A stretch of 64,000 nt of DNA from Ignavibacteriales bacterium (GTDB lineage Bacteria; Bacteroidota; Ignavibacteria; Ignavibacteriales; SURF-24), in assembly GCA_003599415.1 (NCBI GenBank), contig QZKB01000067.1, forward strand, positions 1 to 64,000, given 5' to 3'. A program made the translations under genes and the position numbers. A model generated the notes under the pieces. The model was not told the origin of the DNA, did not search any database, and saw only the letters and a program-made list of their open reading frames with translations. Positions 2 to 31,519 of this stretch are shown piece by piece; position 1 is the first letter of the stretch, and each line of letters opens with the position of its first letter.

Positions 2-211
2 TCTTTACCAGGAGCTATTGCAGCGGGACCAGTGAGTAAAAGTTCTTTTAGTAAGTATAAGATTCTGATTGAAAGTGCTGACAGGTTTAAGAGGTTCCAA
101 ACATCTGATGCCGTTTATTATGATGATAGGATGGACTATGTTACAAACGAGCCGACAATTTCTGCTAATGCCACAGGTTTATTTGTAATTGGATGGTTTT
201 CCGGAAAATAA
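2..211 (+). CDS. C-terminal fragment of a glycoside hydrolase family 9-like (endoglucanase-type) protein, truncated by window start
   Basis: Frame 2 reads SLPGAIAAGPVSKSS...YYDDRMDYVTNEPTISANATGLFVIGWFSGK*. This resembles the GH9 C-terminal signature (GGP..., Y.D...Y..NE..I..NA). Confidence 0.6.
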   Translation, partial: SLPGAIAAGPVSKSSFSKYKILIESADRFKRFQTSDAVYYDDRMDYVTNEPTISANATGLFVIGWFSGK

Positions 212-354
212 ATAGGATTGTTTTAGGATGGTACACATCTTTAAATATTCTCAGAGTGAATCATTTGTACTAATTGGCGAATTTGTTTATACACATAAAT
301 CTACCTTTTTTAAGGCACATAATTTGTCATTTTTAGACTAATTTAGGACTGTCT

Positions 355-1653
355 ATGAAAAAGAATATACAATTAATACCATCTGGTGTGACATTAGTTG
401 ATCAGACCTGGGGCGGCTTTTATAAAGGCGGTTCTTATATTTTAATCGGACCGAGGAAATCCGGGCGCACACTTTTAGGTTTGCAATACGCTTTACAATC
501 CGCCAAACAAAAAGAAGTCTGCTTGTATTTTACAACAATGCGTCCAAAGGATTTAATGATTCAGGCTGCTTCTATAGATTTTGATTTGCAGAATTATATG
601 AATCAGAATCTAATTGTTGTTGTTAGAGTTGCTCCACCGAATGATATAAATGATATAAGAAATTCTGACGATTACCTTGTTGAGTATTTCAAGGATATTG
701 TTACTGTTGTTAATCAGTTTTCTCCTAACAGGATTATTTTTGATGAATTAACTCCTTACCTGAGTTTTTCAAATCTTGATGTACTGAAAGATACTTTTTT
801 ACAAACGATTGAAACGATTGAAGAGAAGGATATAATAAGTTTGTTTATTGTTGGTGAACCTGCTACTCCGGTTGCCCAATCCATAGTTGATGTAATGGCA
901 CAGTTTGTTACCGGAAGTATTTACCTGCAGAAGAGACCAACGGTTATGGAGAATAAATATCAAGGTGGTAAGATGACCATCACTCCTAACATCGGACATA
1001 CAGAAGGTCAGTTTACTGCTAATTATTTTATTGAGCCATACAAAGGAATTGTTGTTGATTATAAACCGTCATATCCAACATCAACAGGAATTCAGGCCCC
1101 TGCCCAGAACAGCTTTTTTAATCAGCCTGCGCAAACAAATAAAAAGGATTCAAAATATCTTAGCTTATCAAGTTTCGAGGTTCAGTCCGAACCTTATTCA
1201 TTTTCGAACTTATATGATTATAACGATTTTCTTTTGTTACTGAATAACCAGATAGCGCTGTATAAAAGTACCGGCCAGGTATTTAATCTTGTAACATTCA
1301 AATTAGATCATGCAGCCGAACAGCAGGGTTTAATTACGATGAATCAGTTACAAAATGCAATCAGGCTTGGTTCCGATAAAAAAGATAAGATTTGTTTGAA
1401 AGACAATAAAGTTATTGTTTTAATTACTCGTAACGATAAGAAAATTGTCCAGGAATTAATCTCCAAAATGCAAAACAATCTGCCAAGTGTTAATCCGGAA
1501 TACATAAGGGCAGTTGTAAACAACATTTCCGTACTTTCTGTAGAAATTGATGAACACATTGAAAATGCCGAATCACTAATGGATTACATAGCTTCAGATG
1601 AAACTCATTTCCGGAATAATTACGATAGTTTCAATAATTATAATAAATTCTGA
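355..1653 (+). CDS. KaiC/RecA-superfamily ATPase-like protein with degenerate Walker A and a GGDEF-like C-terminal region
   Basis: N-terminus GGSYILIGPRKSGRTLLGLQYALQSA aligns with the KaiC P-loop region; Walker B-like RIIFDEL. The C-terminal half has GGDEF-fold-like hydrophobic spacing (FNLVTFKLDHA...LQNAIRLGSDKKDKICLKDNKVIVLITRND). Confidence 0.65.
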   Translation: MKKNIQLIPSGVTLVDQTWGGFYKGGSYILIGPRKSGRTLLGLQYALQSAKQKEVCLYFTTMRPKDLMIQAASIDFDLQNYMNQNLIVVVRVAPPNDINDIRNSDDYLVEYFKDIVTVVNQFSPNRIIFDELTPYLSFSNLDVLKDTFLQTIETIEEKDIISLFIVGEPATPVAQSIVDVMAQFVTGSIYLQKRPTVMENKYQGGKMTITPNIGHTEGQFTANYFIEPYKGIVVDYKPSYPTSTGIQAPAQNSFFNQPAQTNKKDSKYLSLSSFEVQSEPYSFSNLYDYNDFLLLLNNQIALYKSTGQVFNLVTFKLDHAAEQQGLITMNQLQNAIRLGSDKKDKICLKDNKVIVLITRNDKKIVQELISKMQNNLPSVNPEYIRAVVNNISVLSVEIDEHIENAESLMDYIASDETHFRNNYDSFNNYNKF

Positions 1654-4526
1654 TGAAGCATTTTACCAAAACAGTATTTTTTCTGTTTGTAATCTGTACC
1701 TTATCTTTTGCACAAACTGCCAACGATGCAATTAAGAGAGAAGCTCTTACCCATATGCAATATGGGCGGTACGGTGAAGCAATTGACCTTCTGAATAAAT
1801 ACATTTCTGCATTACCACACAAAGCCGAAGGTTTACATTTACGCGGTTTATGTTATGAAAAACGCGGTCAGTATGAATGGGCTGCATTGGATTTAAGACG
1901 TGCAGTTAAATTAGCTCCAGATGATCAAAAATTACGTGAAGACCTGAACAGAGTTGAAAAAATTTGGCATGAACTTCTTAATAAAAAAATTGAAGGCCAT
2001 AAACGGGAAATAGCAATCAATCCTAATGTTGCAGTAAATTATCTTGAAATTGGTAAATGCAAAAAAAATCTTGGTGAATGGAAAGAAGCTGAACAGTGGT
2101 ATGATGAATATCTGAAAAGAGATGAAAATGCTTCTTCTGATGAAGTAATACGTTATAGTGAAATTCTTTCTAAGAACGGTTCAATTGTTAAAGGAGAAAA
2201 AATATTAAAGAAGTATGTTGAAAAGTATCCCGATGATCAACGTCTTTGGAGCAGATACGGATTTTTTACAATGTGGCTTGGCAAAAACAAGATTGCAATT
2301 ATGGCTTTTGAAAATGCTCTTGCATTAAAACCTTATTTCAAAGAAGCCCAGGATGGTTTGGATCAGGCTAAAGGGAAGCCATACTTGTTTGAGTGGGTTG
2401 ATACCTTATCCCGAAGAAAAGCACAACAAGCTCCTCCGGAATTTAATATTGATAAATATTACCGGATTGTAAGAAAAAATGCTGAAGATAGTGAAACAAG
2501 ATTATTGCTCGTACAGGAACTGATAAAATATGAAAGAATGGAAGAAGCATACCAGCAACTTCAGATTTTACAAAAGAAAAATCCGGATGATCCTACTATA
2601 AGACCGTTGATGGATAGCGTTACAACATTTAGGGATGTTGTCTATAAAAAAAGGTTAGTTGATTATAACAATAAGCTTGCCTTAAATCCGAAAGATAAAG
2701 AAGCCGCGCTGAAAGTAGCTGAATATCAGGGTAACCTGACGAACTATGATAGTGCAATTGTTGTTCTCGAAAATTATCTTCAGGGTGTTCCGGATAATCA
2801 GGAGAGTGATGTTCGCTTCCGTCTTGCTCAGTATTCAGCGTGGAATTATGATTGGGAAAGGGCAATTGCCCAGTTGAATATCTTACTTATACAGGATCCA
2901 AATAATCTTGAATACCAGATGCTTAGAGGGCAAATTTCAGTTTGGAATACTTCTGACCTTGATCTTGCTGAGAAATATTTAACGAATGTTTATGATAAGC
3001 AACCGGAAAATTTCGCTGCTCTTCTTTCACTATCTACACTTTATTGCTGGAAAGATGATTTTACTACCGCGAAAAAATTCCTGGATCTTGCAGAGAAAAT
3101 AGATGCAACTGATACTTACTTTATTACAACACAGCAGTTATATGAGACTGCAAAAGCAAATGCCGAAGAGAGAAGAATATTAGATATAAGAGTTGAAGGT
3201 GGAAAATTAGCAATGGAAGGTGATTGTGAAGGAGCACTTACTAAATATGATGAGTATTTTACATACAAAACTGCGCCGGAAAAAACTGCTCTTATGGAAT
3301 ATGCAGAAGTTAATATGTGCGTAAAGAATTTTGGTAAAACGGTGGAAATCTGCAACCAGATTCTTGAACAGGAATATGATTATAATGCAGCTATGCTAAG
3401 AGCCAAAGCATACCTATGGGGTGGCGATTCTCTGACTGCAGTTTCCGAATTTCAAAAGCTGGCCGATGAAGATTCATCAAGTTGGGAAGCAAAATTCTAT
3501 CTTGCTGAAAGTTACCAGGTTACAAGGAATTATGATGAAGCAAAAGACATCTATGATCTTCTTCTTGAAAACGAAACGGATTCAACAAAGATAAAATTAA
3601 TTCAACAGAGAATTGAATGGATTCCTGTTGTTGGTATAAAAGGAATCATTTCAAGGTTTCCAAACTCTGTTGGGTTCGCTCCTATATATAATTATTACTC
3701 CGATAATTTCGACCTTATATTTAAAAGCTGGGGCGGACGTTTGGATTTAGGACTTACAAGTTTTCTGACTATCGGAACAAGTTTTAGCAGAGGTGATCTT
3801 AGCAAGGAATGGGCTCAAAGGAACTATACAATTCTGAAAGCACATTTAAACATCTGGATAACAAGCAAATTTGTTGCAAGTTTTGGCTTTGGAAATTTGA
3901 CCTACGAAGGTTACTCAAATAGGAACGTAAGTGATATCACAATGAAATATGAGAATAAAGATCATTTCTCTGTTGCAGGTATCTATGACCATACAGATGC
4001 AGCATTGGTTCTGTATTCTCCGAGTCTTGTCTTTTACGATATTGCAACCGACTACAGAATTTTATCTGATCTATACAAATTAATGTTTTACTACTATCCA
4101 AGAAAAGAATTGAAGTTTTCAGGTTATTATCAGTTTCTGGATCTGACTGATGGTAACCTTGGTAATGATCTTCAACTTAGAATTGGCAGATTGTTTGAGT
4201 GGGACATCTGGGCTGGATACGAATATTTCTATTCAAACTATGCAAGGAAATCTAAATTCTATTACTCACCTAGCGATTTTGAATCTCATAGCCTATGGCT
4301 TGACTGGATTGTTCAGAATGATGAAACGTTGGAAGTAGATATTAATGGTAAGGTTGGCTATGTACCTGCAAGCGATTTTCTTATCCGTGAAGTTGGTGCT
4401 GGTATAACCTATAAACCCATTAAGAATTTGTCCATTACTGGTAAGATTACACTCGGAAGCACTTACAGGTATGATGCAAGTTATAGATTTATTTCCAGTT
4501 CCATTTATGCGTACTGGAGTTTTTAA
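1653..4526 (+). CDS. TPR-repeat protein with C-terminal outer-membrane beta-barrel (YaiO/PgaA/BcsC-like exopolysaccharide export protein)
   Basis: Signal peptide, long TPR region (YGRYGEAIDLLNKYISALPHKAEGLHLRGLCYEKRGQYEWAALDL...), then ~270 aa of beta-barrel-like alternating strands ending in aromatic F (SIYAYWSF). Start overlaps the upstream stop (TGATG). Confidence 0.8.
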   Translation: MKHFTKTVFFLFVICTLSFAQTANDAIKREALTHMQYGRYGEAIDLLNKYISALPHKAEGLHLRGLCYEKRGQYEWAALDLRRAVKLAPDDQKLREDLNRVEKIWHELLNKKIEGHKREIAINPNVAVNYLEIGKCKKNLGEWKEAEQWYDEYLKRDENASSDEVIRYSEILSKNGSIVKGEKILKKYVEKYPDDQRLWSRYGFFTMWLGKNKIAIMAFENALALKPYFKEAQDGLDQAKGKPYLFEWVDTLSRRKAQQAPPEFNIDKYYRIVRKNAEDSETRLLLVQELIKYERMEEAYQQLQILQKKNPDDPTIRPLMDSVTTFRDVVYKKRLVDYNNKLALNPKDKEAALKVAEYQGNLTNYDSAIVVLENYLQGVPDNQESDVRFRLAQYSAWNYDWERAIAQLNILLIQDPNNLEYQMLRGQISVWNTSDLDLAEKYLTNVYDKQPENFAALLSLSTLYCWKDDFTTAKKFLDLAEKIDATDTYFITTQQLYETAKANAEERRILDIRVEGGKLAMEGDCEGALTKYDEYFTYKTAPEKTALMEYAEVNMCVKNFGKTVEICNQILEQEYDYNAAMLRAKAYLWGGDSLTAVSEFQKLADEDSSSWEAKFYLAESYQVTRNYDEAKDIYDLLLENETDSTKIKLIQQRIEWIPVVGIKGIISRFPNSVGFAPIYNYYSDNFDLIFKSWGGRLDLGLTSFLTIGTSFSRGDLSKEWAQRNYTILKAHLNIWITSKFVASFGFGNLTYEGYSNRNVSDITMKYENKDHFSVAGIYDHTDAALVLYSPSLVFYDIATDYRILSDLYKLMFYYYPRKELKFSGYYQFLDLTDGNLGNDLQLRIGRLFEWDIWAGYEYFYSNYARKSKFYYSPSDFESHSLWLDWIVQNDETLEVDINGKVGYVPASDFLIREVGAGITYKPIKNLSITGKITLGSTYRYDASYRFISSSIYAYWSF

Positions 4527-4547
4527 CATTAACAGGAGTAAATATTG

Positions 4548-5816
4548 ATGTCCCGATTAATACAATCACTTATTTTATTTGTAATGATCTTTTCTTCTAA
4601 TGGTTTTTATGCGAATACAAATACCGGTTCAAATTCCGGTAGAGATGTTTATTTGTGTGAAGAAGCCGCAAGAGACAATGTTAGTTATTATGGCTCTTCT
4701 TATGGAAAGAAAGTTCCTATTACAGGTGATGTAAGTCAGTTGAGATATTTCTTTAATGCTCTCAAGTTAAGTAAAAGCTCCAGAATAAGAGTTGCTCATT
4801 ACGGAGATTCAATTATTCTTGGTGATGTTATTTCGGAGGGATTACGTGAAAACCTTCAGGCTAAGTTTGGAGGTAACGGTGCCGGTTTTGTTGCCATTAA
4901 TACAGATGATTTTGGTATGAGAAAAACTACAACGATAAAATTCTCAAACGACTGGAACGAAGCTTCTGTTTTCAAACGCAATCCTAAAAACTGGCCGCTT
5001 GGTATAGCCGGTAACGTATTTATGCCTTCGGCAAACAGCTATGTTCAGTATGAAACTTCAAGGTTATCCAGATCATTAAAATCATTTAAGAATGTATACC
5101 TTTATTATAAAGGTTCTAATGGAATAGGCTCTGTTGATTTCTCATTTAACTCCGGTGGAACTCAAAGTAAAAAACTTGCTTCTACAGACAGGGTTAAAGA
5201 TTTGCTTGTAACATCTTCATCAGATGCAACTTCAGTCAAATTGACTTTTAAATCCTGCACCAATACTTATTTTTATGGCGTCAGTCTTGAAAATGGTAAT
5301 GGTATTTACGTTGATAATTTTCCGATGAAGGGCCAGTCGGGCATAATGTTAGTTGATCTTACACAACCTGTACTTAAAGAATTCAGCTCCTTGCTTGATT
5401 ACAAACTTATAATACTCAATTTTGGTGTTAATGTAGTATCGCCTGAATATAATGATTATGTCTGGTATGAGAAAAAAATGGAGAAAGTAATTGATCATTT
5501 TAAAAGCGCATTTCCAAATGCATCAATTCTTATTGTTAGCGCAGGTGATAAAAGTGTGAAAAAGGGAATGAGTTTTTCAACAGATCCTCAGATTGCACTT
5601 TTACTTAAATCTCAAAAATTAATTGCTGAAAAATCAAAAGTGGCATTCTGGAATTTATACGAAGCAATGGGAGGCGCAAATGCTATGGAAAGCTGGGTTA
5701 GCGCCAAACCTCAACTTGCACTAAAAGATTATTGCCATCTTACTTCTGAGGGAGGAAAAGTAGTTTCCGATTTATTATCCGAAGCATTATTGAGTGCATA
5801 TAATAAAGCTAAATAG
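4548..5816 (+). CDS. Secreted SGNH/GDSL-family hydrolase
   Basis: Signal peptide; block I-like RVAHYGDSIILGD; NFGVN; C-terminal DxxH (LKDYCHLTSEGG). Confidence 0.75.
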   Translation: MSRLIQSLILFVMIFSSNGFYANTNTGSNSGRDVYLCEEAARDNVSYYGSSYGKKVPITGDVSQLRYFFNALKLSKSSRIRVAHYGDSIILGDVISEGLRENLQAKFGGNGAGFVAINTDDFGMRKTTTIKFSNDWNEASVFKRNPKNWPLGIAGNVFMPSANSYVQYETSRLSRSLKSFKNVYLYYKGSNGIGSVDFSFNSGGTQSKKLASTDRVKDLLVTSSSDATSVKLTFKSCTNTYFYGVSLENGNGIYVDNFPMKGQSGIMLVDLTQPVLKEFSSLLDYKLIILNFGVNVVSPEYNDYVWYEKKMEKVIDHFKSAFPNASILIVSAGDKSVKKGMSFSTDPQIALLLKSQKLIAEKSKVAFWNLYEAMGGANAMESWVSAKPQLALKDYCHLTSEGGKVVSDLLSEALLSAYNKAK

Positions 5817-5910
5817 CATCATTTTACGAGTGGTTCATTTTTATACTCGTGTTTGTTTCTGAAACAACCTGCCATTATGAATTATGTAAATTCTGTGAAT
5901 TTATGTAGTT

Positions 5911-7362
5911 TTGAATGGTATGGAAATTGACCTTTTGTATTTTAAAAAAATTATTAAGGGAATGCCTAATACTAAAGACATATTAAAACGCAAGATAGTC
6001 TTAAATAACTTCGAACCTCTCAAAGATTCGAGCGGAAAGGATAGAAAGTTATTAAGATTAATATTTATTTCAGGAGCGCTTTCTGTTTTATTTCTTGCTA
6101 TAATTATATTCACATTACCTTATACTGACCTTTCATTAAGCAGCTTGTTTGTATTTTCATCCATTGTCTCACTGGTAATATTCCTTTTCGTCTTATTATT
6201 CAGATATTTCTCTATCCTGGTGATGGCCTACTTGTACATTACAAGGTACACGGTTCAACAGAAGAATACATACACTCCATTTGTTTCTATTATTGTTCCG
6301 GTTTATAATGAAGGTAAAGTTCTAACAGAATCAATTAAATCCCTGTTAAAACTAAATTATTCGAATTACGAAATAATAATTGTAAACGATGGTTCAACAG
6401 ACAATACAAAACAAGTGGCCCAATCATTAGTTGGGTTGCAGGACGGGTTAAATTCAAAAGTCAGAATATCACTTGTCAATAAAGCTAACGGTGGAAAATC
6501 CCGCGCGTTAAATGCAGGCATCCAGGTCTCCAAAGGTGATTTTGTATTGTGTATGGACGGTGATTCACAGCTTTCTCCTGATACTTTGAAATACGGCGTT
6601 TCGCACTTTATTGATCCTGCAATAGGTGCAGTTGCCGGCAATGTAAAAGTATTGAACAGGAAGAAATTTCTTACCGATCTTCAGAGTCTTGAATACCTCG
6701 AAGGTTTGAACATGCCAAGAAGCGCTCAGAGTTTTCTTAAACTTGTAAATATCATTCCTGGTCCAATTGGAATATTCAGAAAAAAAGCTATTCAGGATGC
6801 AGGGTGGTATGCAAGCGATACATTTGCTGAAGATGCTGATCTGACTCTTAAAATTTTAGCTGCCGGCTGGAAAATTTATTATGAACCAATGGCTATTTCC
6901 TGGACTGAAGCCCCGGATAAATTAAATCAGTTATTGAAGCAGCGTTACAGATGGACAAGAGGTATAATTCAGTCTATCCGTAAACATAAAAAACACTTGA
7001 TGAATCCTACTATTAATTTTAATAATTCGTTGGTTCTCTGGTCAATGTTTTATGAATCCCTGATATGGCCGATTATGAATATTTTTGCCAATGGCTACTT
7101 TATTATTGTTGCATTGTTTTTTGGAATGTCCAATCTACTCGTTTTTTGGTGGGCGGGACTTGCACTATTAGATTTAATGACTTCTCTGTATTGCATTGCT
7201 GTTGAGAAGGAGGAAGTAAGACTAATTCCTTATGCAATTGTTTACAGGTTGTTTTTTATTTTGCTGATTGATATTACAAAGTTTATGGCTACAATTGAAG
7301 AGTTCTTAGGAATGCAGATGACCTGGGGGAAACTTGAAAGAATCGGAACAGCGAAAGCATAA
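5911..7362 (+). CDS. Processive family 2 glycosyltransferase (PgaC/BcsA-like polysaccharide synthase)
   Basis: VSIIVPVYNEGKVLTESIKSLL, VNDGSTDNT, CMDGDSQLSPD, AEDADLTLK, QRYRW (QxxRW motif); TM helices flanking the catalytic domain. Confidence 0.9.
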   Translation: MNGMEIDLLYFKKIIKGMPNTKDILKRKIVLNNFEPLKDSSGKDRKLLRLIFISGALSVLFLAIIIFTLPYTDLSLSSLFVFSSIVSLVIFLFVLLFRYFSILVMAYLYITRYTVQQKNTYTPFVSIIVPVYNEGKVLTESIKSLLKLNYSNYEIIIVNDGSTDNTKQVAQSLVGLQDGLNSKVRISLVNKANGGKSRALNAGIQVSKGDFVLCMDGDSQLSPDTLKYGVSHFIDPAIGAVAGNVKVLNRKKFLTDLQSLEYLEGLNMPRSAQSFLKLVNIIPGPIGIFRKKAIQDAGWYASDTFAEDADLTLKILAAGWKIYYEPMAISWTEAPDKLNQLLKQRYRWTRGIIQSIRKHKKHLMNPTINFNNSLVLWSMFYESLIWPIMNIFANGYFIIVALFFGMSNLLVFWWAGLALLDLMTSLYCIAVEKEEVRLIPYAIVYRLFFILLIDITKFMATIEEFLGMQMTWGKLERIGTAKA

Positions 7363-7381
7363 AAGTTTATAAGAGGAAATT

Positions 7382-7870
7382 ATGGAACTTATACCTATAC
7401 TATCTTTTATCATACTGGTTGCTACAATAAGCACTTTTATTTTGGCTATTGGTGCTTATGTGCTTTATAAAATACGGGAACGCAAAGGTGCAATGCAGAC
7501 TGCTCAGCAGCCCAAATCTGTTGAAGCGGAAATTTACGCACCGGCACAAGTTCTTGCTAAACCAAGAGAAGTCAGAGTTGAACAGCAACCTGCTTATCAG
7601 CAACAGTATTATCAAAAAGTACCTTATGATGTTCAGGGAAGACCGGGTTATATACCAGTTCAGCAGGAAAATTATGAACAAAGTGAATTCCGTAAAGTAC
7701 CAGGACAAAGAGCCTACCAACAGAATGTTCAGGCCCCATTTCAACAGTATCAGAACGAAAACACAGGCGAAGATACAACTTCTACAGATAAGAAATTTAT
7801 GAAATATACTTCTGAAGGTTATATTCCGGTAAGTAAAACTAAGACCGGAGAAAATCCAAAGTGGCGGTAG
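7382..7870 (+). CDS. Small single-TM protein with Gln/Tyr-rich cytoplasmic-type tail, unknown function
   Basis: N-terminal TM (LIPILSFIILVATISTFILAIGAYVLY) then KIRERKG and a Q/Y/P-rich low-complexity tail; sits between the GT2 and deacetylase-like genes and overlaps the next ORF. Confidence 0.7.
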   Translation: MELIPILSFIILVATISTFILAIGAYVLYKIRERKGAMQTAQQPKSVEAEIYAPAQVLAKPREVRVEQQPAYQQQYYQKVPYDVQGRPGYIPVQQENYEQSEFRKVPGQRAYQQNVQAPFQQYQNENTGEDTTSTDKKFMKYTSEGYIPVSKTKTGENPKWR

Positions 7871-9759
7871 GACTTAAAAATAGGTTAAAGGTAAATCAAT
7901 TAATTATTTTTGTTAGTGGATTAGTTTTACTAACAGCCTCTGCTCTTGTCTTCCTTTTAATTCTGAAAAATGTTTACGGCAAGTACGACATTTCTGAAAT
8001 TATTCCTACAAAGAAAAATTTATACATTTTTGAAAGTCCGACTAACTTCAAGGTTGGGTTACTCTACTCAAAGTACACTGAAAATATGCTTCCCCAGGGA
8101 AGCACTTGGTTGAGTGATAACATTTCAACGTGGAAAACCTTTTTTGGAAATCTAAAAATATCTTATGAAGTAATATCCGATCAGACAATTGAACTTGGGA
8201 AGCACAAACAGTTTAATATTATTGTATTGCCGGGTACAAAATCATTAAGCGATAAAGAAATAAATCAAATAAAAAAATATGTGGAAGAAGGCGGCAGCAT
8301 ATTTTCTACCAGCGGTACTGCTTCTTATTCAAATGATGGTAAATGGCGCGGATGGGATTTCTTTTCTGAAGTGTACGGCTTAAAATTTACAACTGAAATT
8401 AAACCGGATGAACATTCTAAAATTCACACTTTAAGAGGAGGTTTACCTTTAACTGCGGGAATTCCTACCGGGTTTCCTTTAAAGATTGCAACATGGGATA
8501 GACCTGTTTCGTGTGAAGTTCTGGATCCAAGAACTATACAGGTAAGCTTCTGGTATAATTTCAGGAAGGAAGCCGGACTTGTAATTGAAGAAATAGAGAA
8601 AAGCGCGGGAATTGTTTACGGCACCTATGGAAAGGGAAGATTTGTCTGGTACGGATTTGAACTCAATTCTGTTTTAGGTGAACAGGAAGATTACGTTAAT
8701 TTTGAAAAGCTATTTAAGAATTCCATTAACTGGCTTATTCATGCACCAACAAGCCTTGTAAAGGATTGGCCTTCGCGGTATCGTGCGGCAGCAATCATTG
8801 TTCCTACTTTAACAACGCAAGTCTGGAATGTAAAAAATGTAATTAATATTGCAAGGAATGAACGTATTCCGCTGACTTTTCTTGTTGAACCAAATATTGC
8901 CGAAGAGAATAAAACTCTTTTACAGGAAATGCGCAATTACGGAGATGTGGGGAATATAATTGATATTGGTTATCTGGAATCAGTTGATGATACTGTTAAC
9001 AAATTGTTTAATTATAATTCGCAGTTTGTCCGTTTTAAGAACGGTAAGACTCTTGTTGAAAAAATTCCTACTGTAAAAGTTAAAGGTGCTGTTCCAATGT
9101 ATGGATTGTATGATGAGAACAGCTTACAGGCTTTGGTTCATTCGGATTATGAATTTGTTTTTACTGACTCGCTTACTGACAGGTCAGTTCCAAAAACAAT
9201 TATAAGAGGTGAAAAGAAAATTGTCTCATTCACAAAAACTGCAAGAGATGATTATGAAGTTATAAGAGATTATGGATTGAAAGACAAAAACTTCCAGCTC
9301 TATACATACAAGGAAGATGTAGATAGATTATTGTTTGAAGGTGGTGTATATATTTTAAAGGTTCATACAGATTATCAATGCAGACCTGAATATGCAAGCG
9401 TCATCCAGGATTTAATAAGGTACATGAAATCCCAGAATATTTGGATCACGTCTGCTTCGGAAATTAAAGATTGGTGGTTATCCAAAACCAACCTTGAACT
9501 TTCTACGGAAGCCCGCAGCAGCAGAAGAATGGCTATTGAAATTTCAAATCCCGGAAAGGTTGATGTGGAAAATGTTGACGTCCAGATAAATTTGAATAAG
9601 CCCGTAAAGAATATTCAGATTTCTTCTGAAATTTTCGGCACTAAGATTCCAAAGTATGAAATAAATCCGAGAACAAACTCCTTGCATCTGAAACTTAAAA
9701 AGATGGAAGCCGGAGAAACCGTAAGCTACTTTATTGATTATGATAATGTTACTCTATAG
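7861..9759 (+). CDS. Polysaccharide deacetylase-fold protein with beta-galactosidase-trimerisation/GATase-like N-terminal region
   Basis: GTG start overlaps the upstream stop; N-terminal TM; NIIVLPGTKSLSDKEINQIKKYVEEGGSIFSTSG; C-terminal NodB-like layout (AAIIVPTLTTQVWNVKNVINIARNERIPLTFLVEPN ... YILKVHTDYQCRPEYASVIQDLIRYMKSQNIWITSASEIKDWW). Confidence 0.7.
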   Translation: MAVGLKNRLKVNQLIIFVSGLVLLTASALVFLLILKNVYGKYDISEIIPTKKNLYIFESPTNFKVGLLYSKYTENMLPQGSTWLSDNISTWKTFFGNLKISYEVISDQTIELGKHKQFNIIVLPGTKSLSDKEINQIKKYVEEGGSIFSTSGTASYSNDGKWRGWDFFSEVYGLKFTTEIKPDEHSKIHTLRGGLPLTAGIPTGFPLKIATWDRPVSCEVLDPRTIQVSFWYNFRKEAGLVIEEIEKSAGIVYGTYGKGRFVWYGFELNSVLGEQEDYVNFEKLFKNSINWLIHAPTSLVKDWPSRYRAAAIIVPTLTTQVWNVKNVINIARNERIPLTFLVEPNIAEENKTLLQEMRNYGDVGNIIDIGYLESVDDTVNKLFNYNSQFVRFKNGKTLVEKIPTVKVKGAVPMYGLYDENSLQALVHSDYEFVFTDSLTDRSVPKTIIRGEKKIVSFTKTARDDYEVIRDYGLKDKNFQLYTYKEDVDRLLFEGGVYILKVHTDYQCRPEYASVIQDLIRYMKSQNIWITSASEIKDWWLSKTNLELSTEARSSRRMAIEISNPGKVDVENVDVQINLNKPVKNIQISSEIFGTKIPKYEINPRTNSLHLKLKKMEAGETVSYFIDYDNVTL

Positions 9760-9796
9760 GTCAATTTCGTAATGCCTAATAAGCGGAATAATAGAA

Positions 9797-11608
9797 ATGA
9801 AAAAACTGATACCAAAAACTTTTATCCTTTTAATACTAGTTGCGTTATTTTATGTAGGCTGCGTTGATCAATTAACATCTTCGGATACTCTTCCTCCTTA
9901 TATAACATTATCAAGTCCTAAATCAAACGACACTATTACGGTTGCTGAAGCAGATACTTTTATATATGCTGCTTCTGATGACCAGGAGTTATCGGCAATT
10001 CAACTTTATGTAAATGATGTTTTACAACAAAGTTTTAAGGTAGAAGATGATATTCTGCCGACTGTGTATTTTGTGCCTGATTCAGCGAAATTGAACCAGC
10101 TTGTGAAGATATATCTTAAGGCTGTTGATATTGCAGGTAATACAAATTCCAGTAACGAGGCTTTAAATGTATTCATAAGTGAAAACCGGAATCCGCCTTA
10201 TGCTCCTTCAGGTCTTTCTATTGAAATTCTTTCAACAACTTCTATTAAACTGACATGGAAAGATAACTCACTTAATGAAAGCGGTTTTGAAATTTACAGA
10301 AGAGAATCTACCGGCAGTTATTCAAAATTAAAATCAGTTGCAGCAAATGCTGTATCCTATGAAGATAATACGTTAGAAAGCAATAAGATATATTTCTACA
10401 AAATAAGGGCGGTTAATAAGTACGGTAATTCGAACTATACTTCGGAAGTAAATTCACTTGGTATCGGTGAACTGAATGCCCCTTCACAATTAACAGGGAC
10501 ACCAATAAGCACTAAGAAAATAAAACTTACGTGGAAAGATAATTCCACTGAAGAAACAAGTTTTATTATCCAAAGGAAATATGCCGGCGATATTAGCTTT
10601 TCGTTAAAGGCTACAGTTGGGGCTAATATTACAGAGTATACAGATGAAGGTTTATTTACAGGGACGACTTATGTTTACAGAATTGCAGCTAAAAAGGATA
10701 CTTCTTATTCCGATTGGTCTAATGAGGTTGAAGTTACAACATTAAGTGAAGATTATGCTGCGCCTGCAAACCTTACTGCATCATATTCAACATCCCCGTT
10801 AAGAGTAGTGCTTAACTGGACGGATACTAACCTTAATGAAGTTTATACAAGAATTTTCAGAAAGCTTGATACTGATTCAAAGTTCACTCAGATTGATTCT
10901 GTTAGCGAAGGAATTAATACTTATTCGGATTACAATGTAACTGCGGCAAATTATATTTATAAGGTGCAGGTTAGAACAACTGCCGGTTATGTTTCTGACT
11001 TTTCTAACACGGCCCAGATAACTGTTCCGATTGTACCTCCAACAGCGCCATCAGGTTTAACTTTATATAATCTTGGTAATGGTATTTACAATCTAGAGTG
11101 GACAGATAATTCAAGTGACGAAACAGGATTTGAGCTTTGGCGCAAAGACGGAACTGCTGATTATGCACTCATTAAATCGTTAGATGCAAATGTTACAAGT
11201 ACAAACGATGCGGTACAAAATGTAAATTTACTCTATCAATACAAAGTACGAGCAGTTAAAAACCTGGTAGCATCGGATTTTAGTAATGTTGTTAGTTCAA
11301 CGGGAGGAACAAGCTCATATCCAAGACCAACAAACATAAAGGCAGTATTTGTCAGTAAGGATTCAATAGGTTTTTCCTGGACAAATAATGCTACAAACGG
11401 ATTGGTAATTATAATTCAGAGAAAATGGACGTCGTGGGGATCTTATTCCGAATTGGCAAGGGTCCTGCCTAATTCAACTCAATATGTTGACAGGTTTAGT
11501 TTTACAGTTGGTACCGAATACTATTACAGGATAAAAGTAAAAAGCGTGTCAGGAGAAGAGTCCGATTGGTCTGATGAATTAATTATCACCATTCCCTCCC
11601 GAAAATAA
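9797..11608 (+). CDS. Multi-domain fibronectin type III lipoprotein
   Basis: Lipobox-like ...FYVGC; Ig-like start (PPYITLSSPKSNDTI), then repeated FN3 modules (APSGLSIEILSTTSIKLTWKDNSLNESGFEIYRR..., repeated several times). Confidence 0.8.
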   Translation: MKKLIPKTFILLILVALFYVGCVDQLTSSDTLPPYITLSSPKSNDTITVAEADTFIYAASDDQELSAIQLYVNDVLQQSFKVEDDILPTVYFVPDSAKLNQLVKIYLKAVDIAGNTNSSNEALNVFISENRNPPYAPSGLSIEILSTTSIKLTWKDNSLNESGFEIYRRESTGSYSKLKSVAANAVSYEDNTLESNKIYFYKIRAVNKYGNSNYTSEVNSLGIGELNAPSQLTGTPISTKKIKLTWKDNSTEETSFIIQRKYAGDISFSLKATVGANITEYTDEGLFTGTTYVYRIAAKKDTSYSDWSNEVEVTTLSEDYAAPANLTASYSTSPLRVVLNWTDTNLNEVYTRIFRKLDTDSKFTQIDSVSEGINTYSDYNVTAANYIYKVQVRTTAGYVSDFSNTAQITVPIVPPTAPSGLTLYNLGNGIYNLEWTDNSSDETGFELWRKDGTADYALIKSLDANVTSTNDAVQNVNLLYQYKVRAVKNLVASDFSNVVSSTGGTSSYPRPTNIKAVFVSKDSIGFSWTNNATNGLVIIIQRKWTSWGSYSELARVLPNSTQYVDRFSFTVGTEYYYRIKVKSVSGEESDWSDELIITIPSRK

Positions 11609-11661
11609 AATGTTAATGCGCTGGTTCCCGAATAACATTTGAAAAAAGATCACTGGAAAGT

Positions 11662-14600
11662 ATGATTAATAATTCTGGTTTCTTCAAGGTATTAGACAGC
11701 TTTAGAGAGTTATCATTTATTCTTGATAATAAGGGGAGAATCATATTCAGCAACCAGGCAGCTAAAGTATCAAGGTTTTTTGAAAGACAGGAAGAATTAT
11801 TCTTTAACTATTTTCCGGAAGAGAGTAAAAAAAAAGTATCTGAATTATTCTATACAACAATTACACAAAGGACTGCAATTACTGAAGTCTTAGGTATAGA
11901 GCAGAAAGAAAATAAAGCCGACATAAAATTAAATTTCACTTATTATAATATTGAATCAGATGAAATTGTAATTGCAAAGGTTACCGAGCTGGGAGCAGGT
12001 GAACCTGAAGGCAAGAAAATAAAATTCACATCCTCCAGGCTGGATCTTAATGAATTATTAAAAGACCCTATACAAATAAAAATCTTTGAACAGCTTAAAT
12101 CTGATTTCCCCTTTACTCTTATAAGTAAGAACAACTTTAAAAAAGAAATAAATAAACTTGATGATCTGTTCTGGATAAAAGATCCGCAGAGAAAATACGT
12201 GGTAGTAAATAATTCGTTTTCACATTTCCTTGGCTTACCTGCAAACCAGGTAGAAGGAAGATATGAATACGAATTTTTGCCGCCGTATCTTTCTGACTTT
12301 TCAAAGTCGATGGGCAATTATGTTAGAAATACTTCTAACGTAATTATACAGGAAGGTTTTCCCTTCCTTTATACACCGGAAGATAAAAACCTGAGGATTA
12401 TTGAAATACCAATCTGCGATCTTGATAATGAAGTGCTTGCCCTTGTTGGTATTTCCCAAAATATTCAAAAGGAACAGAATGAAAATGAATTCTTTGGTAA
12501 AAATTTAGTTAAAAACCTGGAAGTTCCTGTTCTTGTTATTGATGTGAACAACAAGTTGATATTTGTTAATTCATCATTCAAAGAAAAGTTACCGTTGACG
12601 AAATATGATACAAACGGTAAAATTATATTTAATGCGTATTCAGAGTTGTCTTTTGAGCTGAATAAGTTTCTTTATTCTGAGGAACTTGCAGAATCGGTAA
12701 AAAAAATTAATATCCCGACGAATAATTTTAGTAATACATTCTTTGATTTTCAGTTCAGAAAAATTTATAATGAAGGTACAGAATTAAAAGGATTAATGAT
12801 TACCATCATCGAAGATGATGATGACATCCTGAATAAAATATTTAAAGCCAGCAGAGGAAAAATGTACGAAGTAATAATACAAAACAGTCCCGAACCGATG
12901 TTTGTTTACGATATTGAAAATTTAAGATTCCTTGAAGTAAACCGGGCCGCATTAAATTTGTACGGTTACACAAAGGATGAATTTATGCAAATGGATTTAA
13001 CCGATCTTTATGCGCCTGAAGATATTCAGACATTACTGAATACATCTGAATCGGAAATGGGTGAAATGAAATTTACCGGCCCATGGCGTCAGAAAAAGAA
13101 AGATGGTTCTATTGTATTTGTTGAAATAAGTAAATCTAGTTTCCAGTTCAGGGAAAAGAATGCTCACTTTAACATCATTCGCGATATAACAGAGAATATT
13201 AAAATTCAAAAAGAAATCCAGCTTTACAAAGCTTCGTATGATAACTCAAATGATTTGTTATTTACTGTTGATAGTGACGGCTTTGTTGTTTCTGCCAATA
13301 AAGTTTCCCTGGATATCCTGGGTTACACTTATGTTGAACTGGATTGCAGACCATTTATTACCTTAGTTTCCGATGACAACAGATCACTAATACTTAATAA
13401 TATCTTTAACACGGAGATTTCTTCTACAATAAAATTAAGTGCTTCTCTTAAAAAGAAAAATGGAGAGTTAATTGCTATGACAATATTAGCGACTCCAATC
13501 TTCGATCTTGCAAAACAGATTGTAGCATATAGTCTAATTGCTTCGCCCGAAATTCTTACAACGCAATTGAAATCATCAGAAGCTGCTGATGCTGCGGTAA
13601 GTAAGAAGGTTGTACAGGAGAAGGGAATCGATATTGAATTCTTGTCTAATGTATTTCATGAAATTTTAACTCCTATGAATGTTATTCTTGGATTTGTTCA
13701 GGAAATTGTTGAGAATATTGAGAAACCGACATTAGAACAAAAAGAATCGATGGAAATTATTGAGCAGAACAGGGAAGTGTTGCTGCAAACAATGAACTCT
13801 TTACTTGAGTATTCTCATCTTGAACAGAATAAAATAGAGTTCATAACTAAGAAATTCCTTTTTACGGATGTTGTTGAATCGTTGCAGAAAAGAACACAGA
13901 AGATTGCTAAGACAAGAAATATTGAATTTTCCTACGGTAAAATTTCTTCATCGCTTAACATTGAAACCGATGTACAGAAGCTTGAGACTTTTCTTGTAAT
14001 GTTTATAACAATTGCTATGCATATTACTAGGGAAAAGAAGATTTTCCTTTCTGCTTACCAGTATAATGATGAACATTTTATTGTAAGCGTAAAAGACAGC
14101 CGTAAATCCGTAAGTCCTTACCTTGCAGAGAATCTTAAAAATATTCTAACCGGAGTTAGCTACAAAAAAGATTTCGGTGTTTCAAGACTTACATTAAAAT
14201 TATCCAATAAACTACGGGAAATGCTTTCAGGTGAATTCAAGTATATCGAAAGAAATAATGAAATCCTGGAAGCCGGTTTTGTATTTCCAATGGTTGTGGT
14301 TACACCGGGTATATTGGAAATTAAAGAAGCAGAAATTATTGCTCCTGAAGAAGTTGAAGAAACTCCCGCACATGAAACTGTAGAGGAATTTGAGGTTGCT
14401 GAAGAGATTATCACAACTAAATTTGAACCTCATTTGAAAACCACAAATGAATTTGAGCGTGAAGCTGCCGTAAAAGAAGAATTAGTGGAAGTTGAAATCC
14501 AATCTAAAAAGAATCTTCCCGAAGAAAAAATAGAGGTAAAACCGGAAATAATTCAGGAAGTAAAACCAAAAGAAAAATTTGATTTAACAAATGTTCATTG

Positions 14601-14955
14601 TTTATATGTGGAAGATCAGGTTGATTCCCAGATATTATTCAAAGTGCAGTTAAAGGAAGCTAAAAAAATTGATTTTGCAGTGAGCTTTGAAGCAGCACTG
14701 CCTCTGCTTCAGCAGTTCAAATATGATTTTATTGTCCTGGATATTAACCTGCAGGGAGAATATAACGGTCTTGATGCATTGAGAATAATAAGAAAATTAC
14801 CCGGTTATGAAACCTCAAAGATTATTGCTGTTACAGCTTATGTTCTTCCCGGGGATAAAGATAAATTTATTGCTGCCGGGTTTAATGATTTTATATCTAA
14901 ACCAATCTTAAGAGAAAAATTAATTGACTCATTGAATAAGATCATGAACACCTAA
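11662..14955 (+). CDS. PAS-domain hybrid histidine kinase-like protein with C-terminal receiver; ATPase domain appears degenerate
   Basis: Several PAS motifs (IIQNSPEPMFVYDIENLRFLEVNRAALNLYGYTKDEF...), H-box FHEILTPMNVILGF, C-terminal receiver (CLYVEDQ, FIVLDINLQG, AVTAY, ISKPI). Confidence 0.85.
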   Translation: MINNSGFFKVLDSFRELSFILDNKGRIIFSNQAAKVSRFFERQEELFFNYFPEESKKKVSELFYTTITQRTAITEVLGIEQKENKADIKLNFTYYNIESDEIVIAKVTELGAGEPEGKKIKFTSSRLDLNELLKDPIQIKIFEQLKSDFPFTLISKNNFKKEINKLDDLFWIKDPQRKYVVVNNSFSHFLGLPANQVEGRYEYEFLPPYLSDFSKSMGNYVRNTSNVIIQEGFPFLYTPEDKNLRIIEIPICDLDNEVLALVGISQNIQKEQNENEFFGKNLVKNLEVPVLVIDVNNKLIFVNSSFKEKLPLTKYDTNGKIIFNAYSELSFELNKFLYSEELAESVKKINIPTNNFSNTFFDFQFRKIYNEGTELKGLMITIIEDDDDILNKIFKASRGKMYEVIIQNSPEPMFVYDIENLRFLEVNRAALNLYGYTKDEFMQMDLTDLYAPEDIQTLLNTSESEMGEMKFTGPWRQKKKDGSIVFVEISKSSFQFREKNAHFNIIRDITENIKIQKEIQLYKASYDNSNDLLFTVDSDGFVVSANKVSLDILGYTYVELDCRPFITLVSDDNRSLILNNIFNTEISSTIKLSASLKKKNGELIAMTILATPIFDLAKQIVAYSLIASPEILTTQLKSSEAADAAVSKKVVQEKGIDIEFLSNVFHEILTPMNVILGFVQEIVENIEKPTLEQKESMEIIEQNREVLLQTMNSLLEYSHLEQNKIEFITKKFLFTDVVESLQKRTQKIAKTRNIEFSYGKISSSLNIETDVQKLETFLVMFITIAMHITREKKIFLSAYQYNDEHFIVSVKDSRKSVSPYLAENLKNILTGVSYKKDFGVSRLTLKLSNKLREMLSGEFKYIERNNEILEAGFVFPMVVVTPGILEIKEAEIIAPEEVEETPAHETVEEFEVAEEIITTKFEPHLKTTNEFEREAAVKEELVEVEIQSKKNLPEEKIEVKPEIIQEVKPKEKFDLTNVHCLYVEDQVDSQILFKVQLKEAKKIDFAVSFEAALPLLQQFKYDFIVLDINLQGEYNGLDALRIIRKLPGYETSKIIAVTAYVLPGDKDKFIAAGFNDFISKPILREKLIDSLNKIMNT

Positions 14956-15003: not shown

Positions 15004-15031
15004 AAATTGCCATACAAATGTATGGCAATTT
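15004..15031. promoter_or_regulatory. Perfect 28-bp inverted repeat upstream of lexA; candidate LexA operator (or hairpin)
   Basis: aaattgccataca-aa-tgtatggcaattt: 13-bp arms with a 2-bp centre, ~67 bp upstream of the lexA start and adjacent to a promoter-like TTGACA (14980) and TATAAA (15001). Confidence 0.5.
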
Positions 15032-15098: not shown

Positions 15099-15719
15099 AT
15101 GGCACGAGATATTACTGAAATACAAAAGAAAATACTGGATTTTCTTTTAGATCATAAATTTGAAAAAGGCATGCCTCCAACCCTTGCCGAAGTAGCGCAA
15201 AAGTTTGGCTACAAAAACAGGGCCACTGTGCAGCAACATCTTGGGGCGCTTGTGAAAAAAGGATTTATTAAGAAAAATCCTAAGCTTGCCCGTGGTATTG
15301 AAATTACTATTGAGGATAAGTTTTTTATTCCTCGTCCTGTAATAGGAGAAGTTGCCGCCGGTAATCCTTTGACTATTTATCCGGATGCAATCGATACTGT
15401 AAATCTTCCAACCATTGCAAGAGTACCAAAGGATTCATTCCTTCTTAAGGTAAAAGGGGATAGCCTTAAGGATGCTTTTATTTTTAACGGTGATATTGTT
15501 ATTGTGAATCCGAATAATGAACCATCCAATGGGCAAATTGTAATTGCAATTTTAGATGATGCCGCTACCATTAAACGTTTTTATAAAAATAAAAACGGAA
15601 TTGAACTAAGACCGGAAAACCCGGAGTATAAACCTATCTTCATAAAAAAAGAGTATCCAAGGTTTAAAATTGTAGGCGTTGCAATTGGCGTTTACAGGAA
15701 TATGGAATGGAAGAATTAA
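15099..15719 (+). CDS. lexA: LexA SOS repressor / S24 autopeptidase
   Basis: Winged helix PPTLAEVAQKFGYKNRATVQQHLGALVKKGFI; Ala-Gly cleavage site GEVAAGNPL; Ser (VKGDSLKD) and Lys (DDAATIKRF) dyad. Confidence 0.92.
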   Translation: MARDITEIQKKILDFLLDHKFEKGMPPTLAEVAQKFGYKNRATVQQHLGALVKKGFIKKNPKLARGIEITIEDKFFIPRPVIGEVAAGNPLTIYPDAIDTVNLPTIARVPKDSFLLKVKGDSLKDAFIFNGDIVIVNPNNEPSNGQIVIAILDDAATIKRFYKNKNGIELRPENPEYKPIFIKKEYPRFKIVGVAIGVYRNMEWKN

Positions 15720-29401: not shown

Positions 29402-31519
29402 TCATCTCTCCTGATTTTGTACACCGGCTTTAATATCGGTTCCAAGTCTTTGCAGATAAGCAATCAATGCAATAATTTCTTTATCATGGGTAACAACTGC
29501 ACCTTGCTTAAGTAAGCCTTTGGATATTTTTTCTGCCTGAAGCATCAATTCGGCATTCGCAGCTTTTTCATATCCTTTGGGATAAGGAACACCGATACTT
29601 CTTAAAGTATTTATCTTTGCTTCTGTTTCAGAGGTATTAATTGTTTGTGAATAAAGCCAAGGATATGGCGGCATTATTGATCCCGGTGACATTGATGTCG
29701 GTTCAAACATATGGTAAAAGTGCCATACATCAGAATATTTGCCGCCTTGGCGATGCAAATCCGGTCCGATTCTTCTTGAGCCCCAAAGGAATGGATGATC
29801 ATATACAAATTCTCCGGCTTTGGAATATTCACCATATCTCTCGGTTTCAGATCTGAATGGTCTTATCATTTGCGAATGACAATTTACACATCCTTCACGT
29901 TGATAAATATCTCTGCCATGAAGTTCCAATGCAGTTAATGGTTTAACACTTGATATTGTTGGTACATTTGACTGAATTAGAAATGTCGGGATAAATTCAA
30001 TTATACCACCGATTAATATTGCAATGGTAGCTAAAACAGTAAATTGAATTGGTTTGCTTTCTAACCACCTGTGACCTTTTTCTTTTTGAAGATGCAAAAG
30101 TGCCGGGGCTTCTGCTGCTTCATTAAATTCAATTTTACCTTGCTTTGCTGTTTTTAGGAGATTATAAATACCAACACAAATTCCAATAATATATAAAGTA
30201 CCACCGACTGCACGAATGATATACATGGGGATAATCTGCGTAACTGATTCAAGGAAATTCGGGTATTGTAAAATTCCGAGCGGAGTAAATTGCTTCCACA
30301 TTAATGATTCTGTTACAGCTGCCCAGTATAGTGAAAGAACATAGAATACCATTCCTAACGTACCAAGCCAGAAGTGAAGATTAGCCGCTTTTACAGAATG
30401 AAGTTTTGTATTGTAAAGTTTAGGTACAAGCCAGTACAGCATTCCGAATGTCAGAAATCCGTTCCAGCCTAAAGCACCAATATGAACGTGACCGATAATC
30501 CAGTTTGTATAGTGAAGCTGAGCGTTGACATTTTTTAGTGAAAGCATTGGTCCTTCAAGAGTTGCCATACCGTAAGCAGTTACTGCAACAACCATGAATT
30601 TTAGAATCGGATCTTCGCGGACTTTATCCCATGCACCACGTAAGGTTAACAAACCATTAATCATTCCGCCCCAGGAAGGAGCAATTAGCATAATTGAAAA
30701 TACAGTTCCAAGGGATTGTGCCCAGTCAGGTAATGCAGTATACAATAGATGATGAGGTCCTGCCCAGATGTAAATAAATATTAATGTCCAGAAGTGTAGA
30801 ATTGAAAGCCTGTAAGAGTAAACAGGTCTGTTGGCAGCTTTTGGCAGGAAGTAATACATCAAGCCAAGAAATGGTGTTGTAAGAAAGAAAGCCACAGCAT
30901 TGTGCCCGTACCACCACTGTACCAATGCATCCTGCACACCGGCATAAAGTGAATAGCTCTTTAATAGTGTAGCGGGAACTTCAAGAGAATTAACAATATG
31001 AAGAACTGCAACAGTTACCCAACCGGAAATATAAAACCAGATTGCAACATACATATGCTCTTCACGGCGTTTGATGATTGTACCAAGCATATTTAATCCA
31101 AAGACGACCCAAACTAATGTAATAGCTATATCAATCGGCCATTCAAGTTCGGCGTACTCCTTAGATGTTGTCAATCCTGCCGGTAATGAAATTGCTGCGA
31201 GAACAATAATAAATTGCCATCCCCAGAAGTTTATTTTACTCAGAATGTCACTGTACATTCTTGCTTTGCAAAGCCGCTGAAGCGAATAATACAATCCTGT
31301 AAAAATTGCATTACCCACAAAGGCAAAGATGACTGCGTTGGTATGTAAAGGACGCAGCCTTCCAAATGTTAAGTAGGGAATACCAAAATTTAATTGCGGT
31401 AAAAACAATTGACATGCAATCAGCAAGCCGACAAGCATTCCGACTACGCCCCAAAGTAACGTAGCCATTGCGAAATTGCGGACAATCTTGTTATCGTAAC
31501 TGAATTTTTCCACTTCCAT
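29402..31519 (-). CDS. ccoNO: Fused cbb3-type cytochrome c oxidase subunits I and II (CcoNO)
   Basis: CcoN part (LRPLHTNAVIFAFVGNAIF, WWYGHNAVAFFLTTPFLG) followed in one ORF by CcoO part (GRDIYQREGCVNCHSQMIRPFRSETERYGEYSKAGEFVYDHPFLWGSRRIGPDLHR). Confidence 0.95.
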   Translation of the reverse strand: MEVEKFSYDNKIVRNFAMATLLWGVVGMLVGLLIACQLFLPQLNFGIPYLTFGRLRPLHTNAVIFAFVGNAIFTGLYYSLQRLCKARMYSDILSKINFWGWQFIIVLAAISLPAGLTTSKEYAELEWPIDIAITLVWVVFGLNMLGTIIKRREEHMYVAIWFYISGWVTVAVLHIVNSLEVPATLLKSYSLYAGVQDALVQWWYGHNAVAFFLTTPFLGLMYYFLPKAANRPVYSYRLSILHFWTLIFIYIWAGPHHLLYTALPDWAQSLGTVFSIMLIAPSWGGMINGLLTLRGAWDKVREDPILKFMVVAVTAYGMATLEGPMLSLKNVNAQLHYTNWIIGHVHIGALGWNGFLTFGMLYWLVPKLYNTKLHSVKAANLHFWLGTLGMVFYVLSLYWAAVTESLMWKQFTPLGILQYPNFLESVTQIIPMYIIRAVGGTLYIIGICVGIYNLLKTAKQGKIEFNEAAEAPALLHLQKEKGHRWLESKPIQFTVLATIAILIGGIIEFIPTFLIQSNVPTISSVKPLTALELHGRDIYQREGCVNCHSQMIRPFRSETERYGEYSKAGEFVYDHPFLWGSRRIGPDLHRQGGKYSDVWHFYHMFEPTSMSPGSIMPPYPWLYSQTINTSETEAKINTLRSIGVPYPKGYEKAANAELMLQAEKISKGLLKQGAVVTHDKEIIALIAYLQRLGTDIKAGVQNQER

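Follow-up and report, generated by a model that had tools for sequence, protein, structure and literature searches.

The upstream part of a 64,000-nucleotide stretch from an Ignavibacteriales bacterium (contig QZKB01000067.1, positions 1 to 64,000; hereafter the window) carries a conserved gene cluster that, from sequence comparison and structural models, probably encodes a synthase-dependent exopolysaccharide secretion system. Its novelty lies most plausibly at the level of the operon type, the kind of system being a known one. A first, sequence-only reading of this DNA had proposed a novel pathway; the operon type is indeed unnamed, whereas a new kind of system is not the favoured reading. 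The source genome is a draft (88.5% complete, 7.3% contamination), and the contig is 69 kb long, the window covering its first 64 kb. All eight open reading frames (ORFs) reported between 355 and 14955 lie in the same direction, and the components of the locus are as follows:

2-208, plus strand: Z, GH9 glycoside hydrolase gene of which the contig start leaves only the 3′ end, recognised by its match to the upstream GH9 genes of relatives
355-1653, plus strand: A, predicted degenerate KaiC/RecA-like protein with a C-terminal degenerate GGDEF-like domain (about residues 284-415)
1653-4526, plus strand: B, predicted exporter with a signal peptide, a TPR array and a C-terminal outer-membrane-barrel-like domain (about the last 300 amino acids)
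4545-5816, plus strand: C, SGNH hydrolase/acyltransferase-like protein, recognised by its SGNH residues and optional
5962-7362 (listed ORF from TTG 5911), plus strand: D, predicted processive GT2 polysaccharide synthase, from TIGR03937, tree and alignment
7382-7870, plus strand: E, predicted membrane protein with a single, near-invariant transmembrane helix and a tail of cytosolic type that ends in a conserved W
7861-9759, plus strand: F, predicted membrane-anchored protein with a GATase-like (GH42-M) domain, a NodB-fold pseudo-deacetylase domain and a C-terminal beta domain
9797-11608, plus strand: G, Big_7/fibronectin type III protein with a lipoprotein-like signal (N-terminal LFYVGCVD)
11662-14955, plus strand: H, predicted soluble hybrid histidine pseudokinase rich in PAS domains, which retains the HisKA His and the REC Asp and has lost the ATP-binding boxes
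15004-15031, plus strand: terminator-like hairpin after H, with a 12-bp stem and a T-rich tail

The close packing described from the letters alone was confirmed on measurement. A and B meet in the TGATG at 1651-1655, E and F share the GTG overlap at 7861-7870, which is 10 bp long, and the remaining gaps, counted from the listed ORF starts, are 18, 94, 19, 37 and 53 bp. The start of D is probably the ATG at 5962 and not the TTG at 5911, because the profile of its orthologs aligns from 5968, and with this start the gap before D grows to about 145 bp.

A lack of conserved gene order in relatives would have refuted the proposal; instead the genes keep their order across Ignavibacteriales, far beyond what chance would give. 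In a 198-genome sample of the phylum, protein F was found in all 21 further genomes belonging to this order, at 43-57% identity, and the neighbourhoods of these relatives read GH9-A-B-(C)-D-E-F-(F2)-G-H in one direction with some losses. Among named genomes, 80 co-directional loci were found, all of them from Ignavibacteriales by title (Melioribacter, Stygiobacter, Ignavibacterium) or from metagenome-assembled genomes with coarser names; the same order was seen where the contig was long enough, with Z or G lost occasionally. The nearest relative, a genome of the same family (G268), carries all of the genes, with identities of 46-79%. Finer features of the locus are kept as well, since the exact 10-bp overlap of E and F recurs in 77 of 79 loci, and A and B overlap or lie at most 26 bp apart in 59 of 59. 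The profile of D matches 37 of 40 genomes of the order at E < 1e-200. The 1e-100 mark is passed by 13 genomes in four families outside the class and by none of those listed for its remaining orders. These outside carriers keep A-B-D-E-F, often with two copies of F, while C, G and H were unrecognised in them. F was not found in plasmid records.

The nature of the product depends above all on D. The alignment of this 483-amino-acid protein (listed ORF) shows conserved DGS, DxD, ED and QRYRW motifs, several C-terminal transmembrane segments are present, and a PilZ domain is not. Its best NCBIfam match is TIGR03937 (PgaC/IcaA), scoring 209.9 bits where the cut-off is 422, and its profile matches hyaluronan synthases over the core shared by membrane synthases, and cellulose synthases as well. 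A maximum-likelihood tree was built with E. coli PgaC and BcsA, Acinetobacter PgaC, NodC, Listeria PssC and others as references; in it the BcsA/NdvB/CesA side is set apart with 99/98 support, and the window family forms a clade (94/100) on the PgaC side. D groups with processive synthases; clustering with protein or lipid glycosyltransferases would have spoken against the proposal. That D might nevertheless act on a lipid or protein acceptor, with B exporting or assembling something else, draws on the versatility of GT2 enzymes, on the match of a ceramide glucosyltransferase to the D profile and on the missing catalytic motif in the NodB-fold protein F. QRYRW and the C-terminal transmembrane segments speak for processive synthesis, a predicted TPR-barrel exporter stands beside D in every lineage and an exporter paralog stands beside an MBOAT gene, and we regard this alternative as very improbable.

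Because D falls on the PgaC side of the tree, its position favours a polymer of N-acetylated amino sugar, and it is here that the upstream GH9 gene has to be weighed. Z is truncated because the window begins at base 1 of the contig. Its last 68 codons are 46-62% identical to the upstream GH9 proteins of relatives, in which an intact protein of about 550-570 amino acids (PF00759, 249.9 bits) occupies the same place, and it keeps the conserved NEPTI segment; the GH9 gene suspected upstream is thus present in truncated form. A cellulose-like glucan, made by D as a beta-1,4-chain with GH9 in the part of BcsZ, would account for a GH9 gene lying directly upstream in most intact loci. Bcs operons do include an endoglucanase, and O-acetylated cellulose reportedly uses an SGNH-type enzyme (WssI). 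Against a glucan stand the separation of D from BcsA in the tree and its nearest NCBIfam family, together with the lack of BcsB in 14 genomes and of PilZ in this genome. Moreover, GH9 lies 101-642 bp from A and never overlaps it in any locus. Glucan secretion is therefore held to be unlikely, and the amino-sugar polymer is preferred. In the Melioribacter genome paper, GH9 proteins were counted as cellulases for growth.

The genes around D supply the other parts of a secretion apparatus. In B the TPR families are clear, and a barrel is predicted from the alignment and from C-termini that are mostly aromatic; of the exporter that had been read from the sequence, the TPR part is plain and the outer-membrane barrel is a candidate, with the correction that TPR and barrel belong to one protein. 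E has one near-invariant transmembrane helix and an invariant W at the end of its tail, follows the synthase directly in all lineages and has no Pfam or NCBIfam family above cut-off. Processive GT2, partner and predicted exporter are thus found in one conserved cluster, as the proposal of a synthase-dependent polysaccharide system required. F was expected to have a deacetylase fold. Its structural model (predicted local distance difference test score 87, predicted template modelling score 0.86) finds as best Foldseek matches the carbohydrate deacetylase Agd3, human NDST1, PelA, CE4 pseudoenzymes and GH42 enzymes, and its profile matches PdaA-type deacetylases and beta-galactosidases. These comparisons show F as a predicted membrane-anchored, periplasmic-type protein that has the NodB fold and lacks the catalytic motifs, that is, a pseudo-deacetylase. 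A relationship of F to Listeria PssB/DUF2334 was considered and gave no profile match. A second copy of F (L055:5087-6904, in the same genome as L140) keeps CDVE, HGDDH and RPP, unlike all other copies seen.

The regulators were described in the sequence-only reading as degenerate, and A and H do lack key enzyme features (the Walker A lysine and the GGDEF motif in A, the ATP-binding boxes in H). A matches PF06745 (KaiC) with 75 bits, a kinship also given by Foldseek; its Walker A reads GPRKSGRT, and the Walker A lysine is replaced by Arg in 70 of 86 homologs. The AlphaFold model of A contains a second domain at about residues 284-415 with a GGDEF-like order of strands and helices, and between the two domains there is only a disordered linker. 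When the C-terminal region was aligned with 15 GGDEF domains the match was colinear (hhalign P = 7e-4), with the GG[DE]EF hairpin replaced; among relatives of A, two match Pfam GGDEF_2 and one matches CBP_BcsE weakly. Profiles and model together show A to be, as far as prediction goes, the fusion of a degenerate KaiC with a degenerate GGDEF. Gene A is tandemly duplicated at some loci (L091, L129, L130 and L132). H, the PAS hybrid kinase noted at the end of the cluster, is PAS-rich and a pseudokinase by sequence: across 77 orthologs, the variants displayed keep the HisKA His and the REC Asp and are without the N and G1 boxes, which shows H as a predicted hybrid kinase devoid of ATP-binding boxes.

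The GGDEF-like domain raises the question of cyclic di-GMP (c-di-GMP). Like BcsE, PelD or Listeria PssE, A could be a true receptor that binds this nucleotide at a GGDEF I-site, and c-di-GMP would then switch the synthase on, a proposal compatible with polysaccharide secretion. It was raised by the RxxD found at the I-site position in other classes (RRGD, RPQD, RNTD) and by the GGDEF-like character of the domain itself. In Ignavibacteriales, however, this position mostly reads xKKD or similar. Each genome of the order that was searched has one weak GGDEF ORF (37-59 bits), and the GG[DE][DE]F motif was found in 0 of 11 such ORFs inspected, the segment itself being displayed in 8. EAL was detected in one of 29 carriers and in none of the order genomes searched, and 6 of 7 carriers outside the order lack any GGDEF. 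Because the I-site is not RxxD, the GGDEF motif is missing, EAL occurs in a single carrier and PilZ was not found in this genome, control by c-di-GMP is unlikely in this order; sensing by A, with cyclases lacking, is judged improbable. The sole GGDEF-like ORF of this genome (L154:124-1980, on contig C162 of G000) adjoins a phosphopentomutase-like gene and has orthologs at L230-L239; it is a predicted conserved dead cyclase outside the cluster.

The SGNH hydrolase claimed for the cluster was borne out in its residues, GDS, GxN and DxxH being invariant in C with a Pfam score below cut-off, and was qualified in that the gene is optional, being present in about a third of loci. Of 23 related genomes, 20 encode a C-like SGNH protein together with an MBOAT protein and the other 3 encode neither, the MBOAT being encoded apart from the cluster. 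Many genomes have an unlinked locus with an SGNH protein, an AMP-forming acetyl/acyl-CoA-ligase-like protein and MBOAT (L240-L259, for example L243:996-9896 in G019 and L244 in G188), and several unlinked SGNH/MBOAT loci also hold a paralog of B that is full-length and about 40-45% identical to it. This locus is a probable O-acylation module. MBOAT-SGNH pairs are a known route for acylating envelope polymers (PMC12148441). The co-occurrence of C with an unlinked MBOAT implies O-acylation, and the pair may act on the polymer of this cluster.

Comparison with named systems places the cluster among synthase-dependent operons and apart from each of them, in agreement with the earlier remark that it matches no named operon: BcsB (14 genomes), PelG (12 genomes) and PilZ (this genome) were not found, and there is no fused PgaB-type hydrolase. 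The E. coli Bcs system (BcsRQABEFG-C) likewise has an inner-membrane synthase, a TPR-barrel outer-membrane protein of the kind predicted here, a cytosolic protein with degenerate nucleoside triphosphatase (NTPase) and GGDEF domains (BcsE) and a small single-pass protein (BcsF). In contrast to Bcs, the synthase here is of PgaC/NodC type without PilZ, and a NodB-fold pseudo-deacetylase stands where Bcs has BcsB. BcsE consists of a catalytically dead RecA/KaiC-like domain with degenerate REC and GGDEF domains and docks at the membrane via BcsF (PMC7439463, PMC11470070). A has the arrangement of BcsE-like regulators, a degenerate RecA/KaiC-like NTPase with a degenerate GGDEF, but has no REC domain, nor, in Ignavibacteriales, an RxxD site. 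The PgaABCD system for poly-N-acetylglucosamine (PNAG) shares a PgaC-related GT2, a small membrane partner and a NodB-fold protein, and its exporter is a TPR-barrel protein, as B is predicted to be. It differs in that the GT2 here scores well short of the PgaC cut-off, E has a single transmembrane helix and a long tail, and F is membrane-anchored with a GATase-like domain and has neither catalytic motifs nor a C-terminal hydrolase. Listeria PssA-E and Bacillus YdaJKLMN combine GT2, degenerate GGDEF, a NodB-like protein and a glycoside hydrolase, and the order DUF2334-GT2-BcsB-GGDEF of this type was seen; these systems, however, are monoderm, use a BcsB-like protein and have a GGDEF protein without the KaiC part. 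Pel resembles the cluster in its degenerate GGDEF control (PelD) and in a modification protein of PelA fold, whereas here there is no PelG, the synthase is a membrane GT2 and F is catalytically dead by motif. Among the papers searched, none linked Ignavibacteria with such a system or described a matrix polysaccharide system for Ignavibacteriales, and an operon survey (PMC7112194) leaves the group unmentioned in its main text.

Several observations weigh against the reading as a secretion system of this kind. GH9 enzymes are usually beta-1,4-glucanases, which fits a glucan better than an amino-sugar polymer. NodC and other reference sequences sit on long branches in the GT2 tree, and the barrel profile of B found no solved relative by sequence in the PDB. 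F has no metal or catalytic deacetylase motifs, which leaves a PNAG- or Pel-like chemistry unsupported. The comparison of A with BcsE gave a hhalign P of 0.023 and was colinear over the NTPase domain only, and that of E with BcsF gave 0.014, which does not establish homology. Sequence homology of A to BcsE (tried with a single sequence and with a 7-sequence profile) and of E to BcsF was weak, is not significant and is not claimed. Because A lacks the REC domain and its sequence comparison is not significant, its resemblance to BcsE is, by analogy, a likeness of layout, and that of E to BcsF is, on the same footing, positional.

Within the preferred reading of a secretion system, D would polymerise a UDP-hexose, an N-acetylated amino sugar being likelier than glucose, and extrude the chain through the inner membrane. 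F may bind or guide the chain like BcsB or PgaB, rather than deacetylate it, and B would take the chain across periplasm and outer membrane. C and the unlinked MBOAT could O-acylate the polymer, and GH9 might trim or release it. A would dock on the synthase through E, as BcsE does through BcsF, and gate or assemble it by conformation or protein binding, without c-di-GMP in this order; H could relay phosphoryl groups from other kinases or serve as a scaffold. A bolder step would be to set up a separate class, in which the synthase stands under a c-di-GMP-free stack of pseudoenzymes (A held by E, F as chain guide, H as phosphotransfer hub) and the O-acylated polymer is unknown elsewhere; this is advanced tentatively and with more doubt than trust. 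The interest of the cluster rests on its pseudoenzyme regulators and the missing c-di-GMP machinery. A nearly universal cluster with a BcsE-like layout and without that machinery would test whether the degenerate NTPase-GGDEF module serves primarily as a scaffold that binds the synthase and secondarily as a sensor of c-di-GMP. Sediments, hot springs and microbial mats commonly harbour Ignavibacteriales, and the cluster offers targets in cultured Melioribacter, Ignavibacterium and Stygiobacter.

The arrangement of the genes also bears on their transcription. The gap between Z and A in relatives has a median of 151 bp (range 101-642 bp, zero overlaps), and the gap before D a median of 219-246 bp. 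The gap of about 150 bp between Z and A and one of 150-250 bp before D in almost all relatives suggest a division into GH9, A-B-(C) and D-H, and D-H and A-B-(C) are likely units. The only strong terminator-like hairpin on the cluster strand is the one after H, which counts against split units, and one transcript for the whole cluster is possible. A scan for sigma-70 promoters gave 57 against 57.8 expected from shuffled sequences, that is, no excess.

Downstream of the cluster lies a LexA gene (window 15099-15719), which has the same placement in 29 named loci. Elsewhere in the window, a 2319-amino-acid ORF occupies 37982-44941, and a 705-amino-acid ORF at 29402-31519 encodes two cytochrome cbb3 oxidase subunits, FixN-like (COX1) and FixO, as a fusion, with FixG-like and metal-ATPase-like genes as neighbours.
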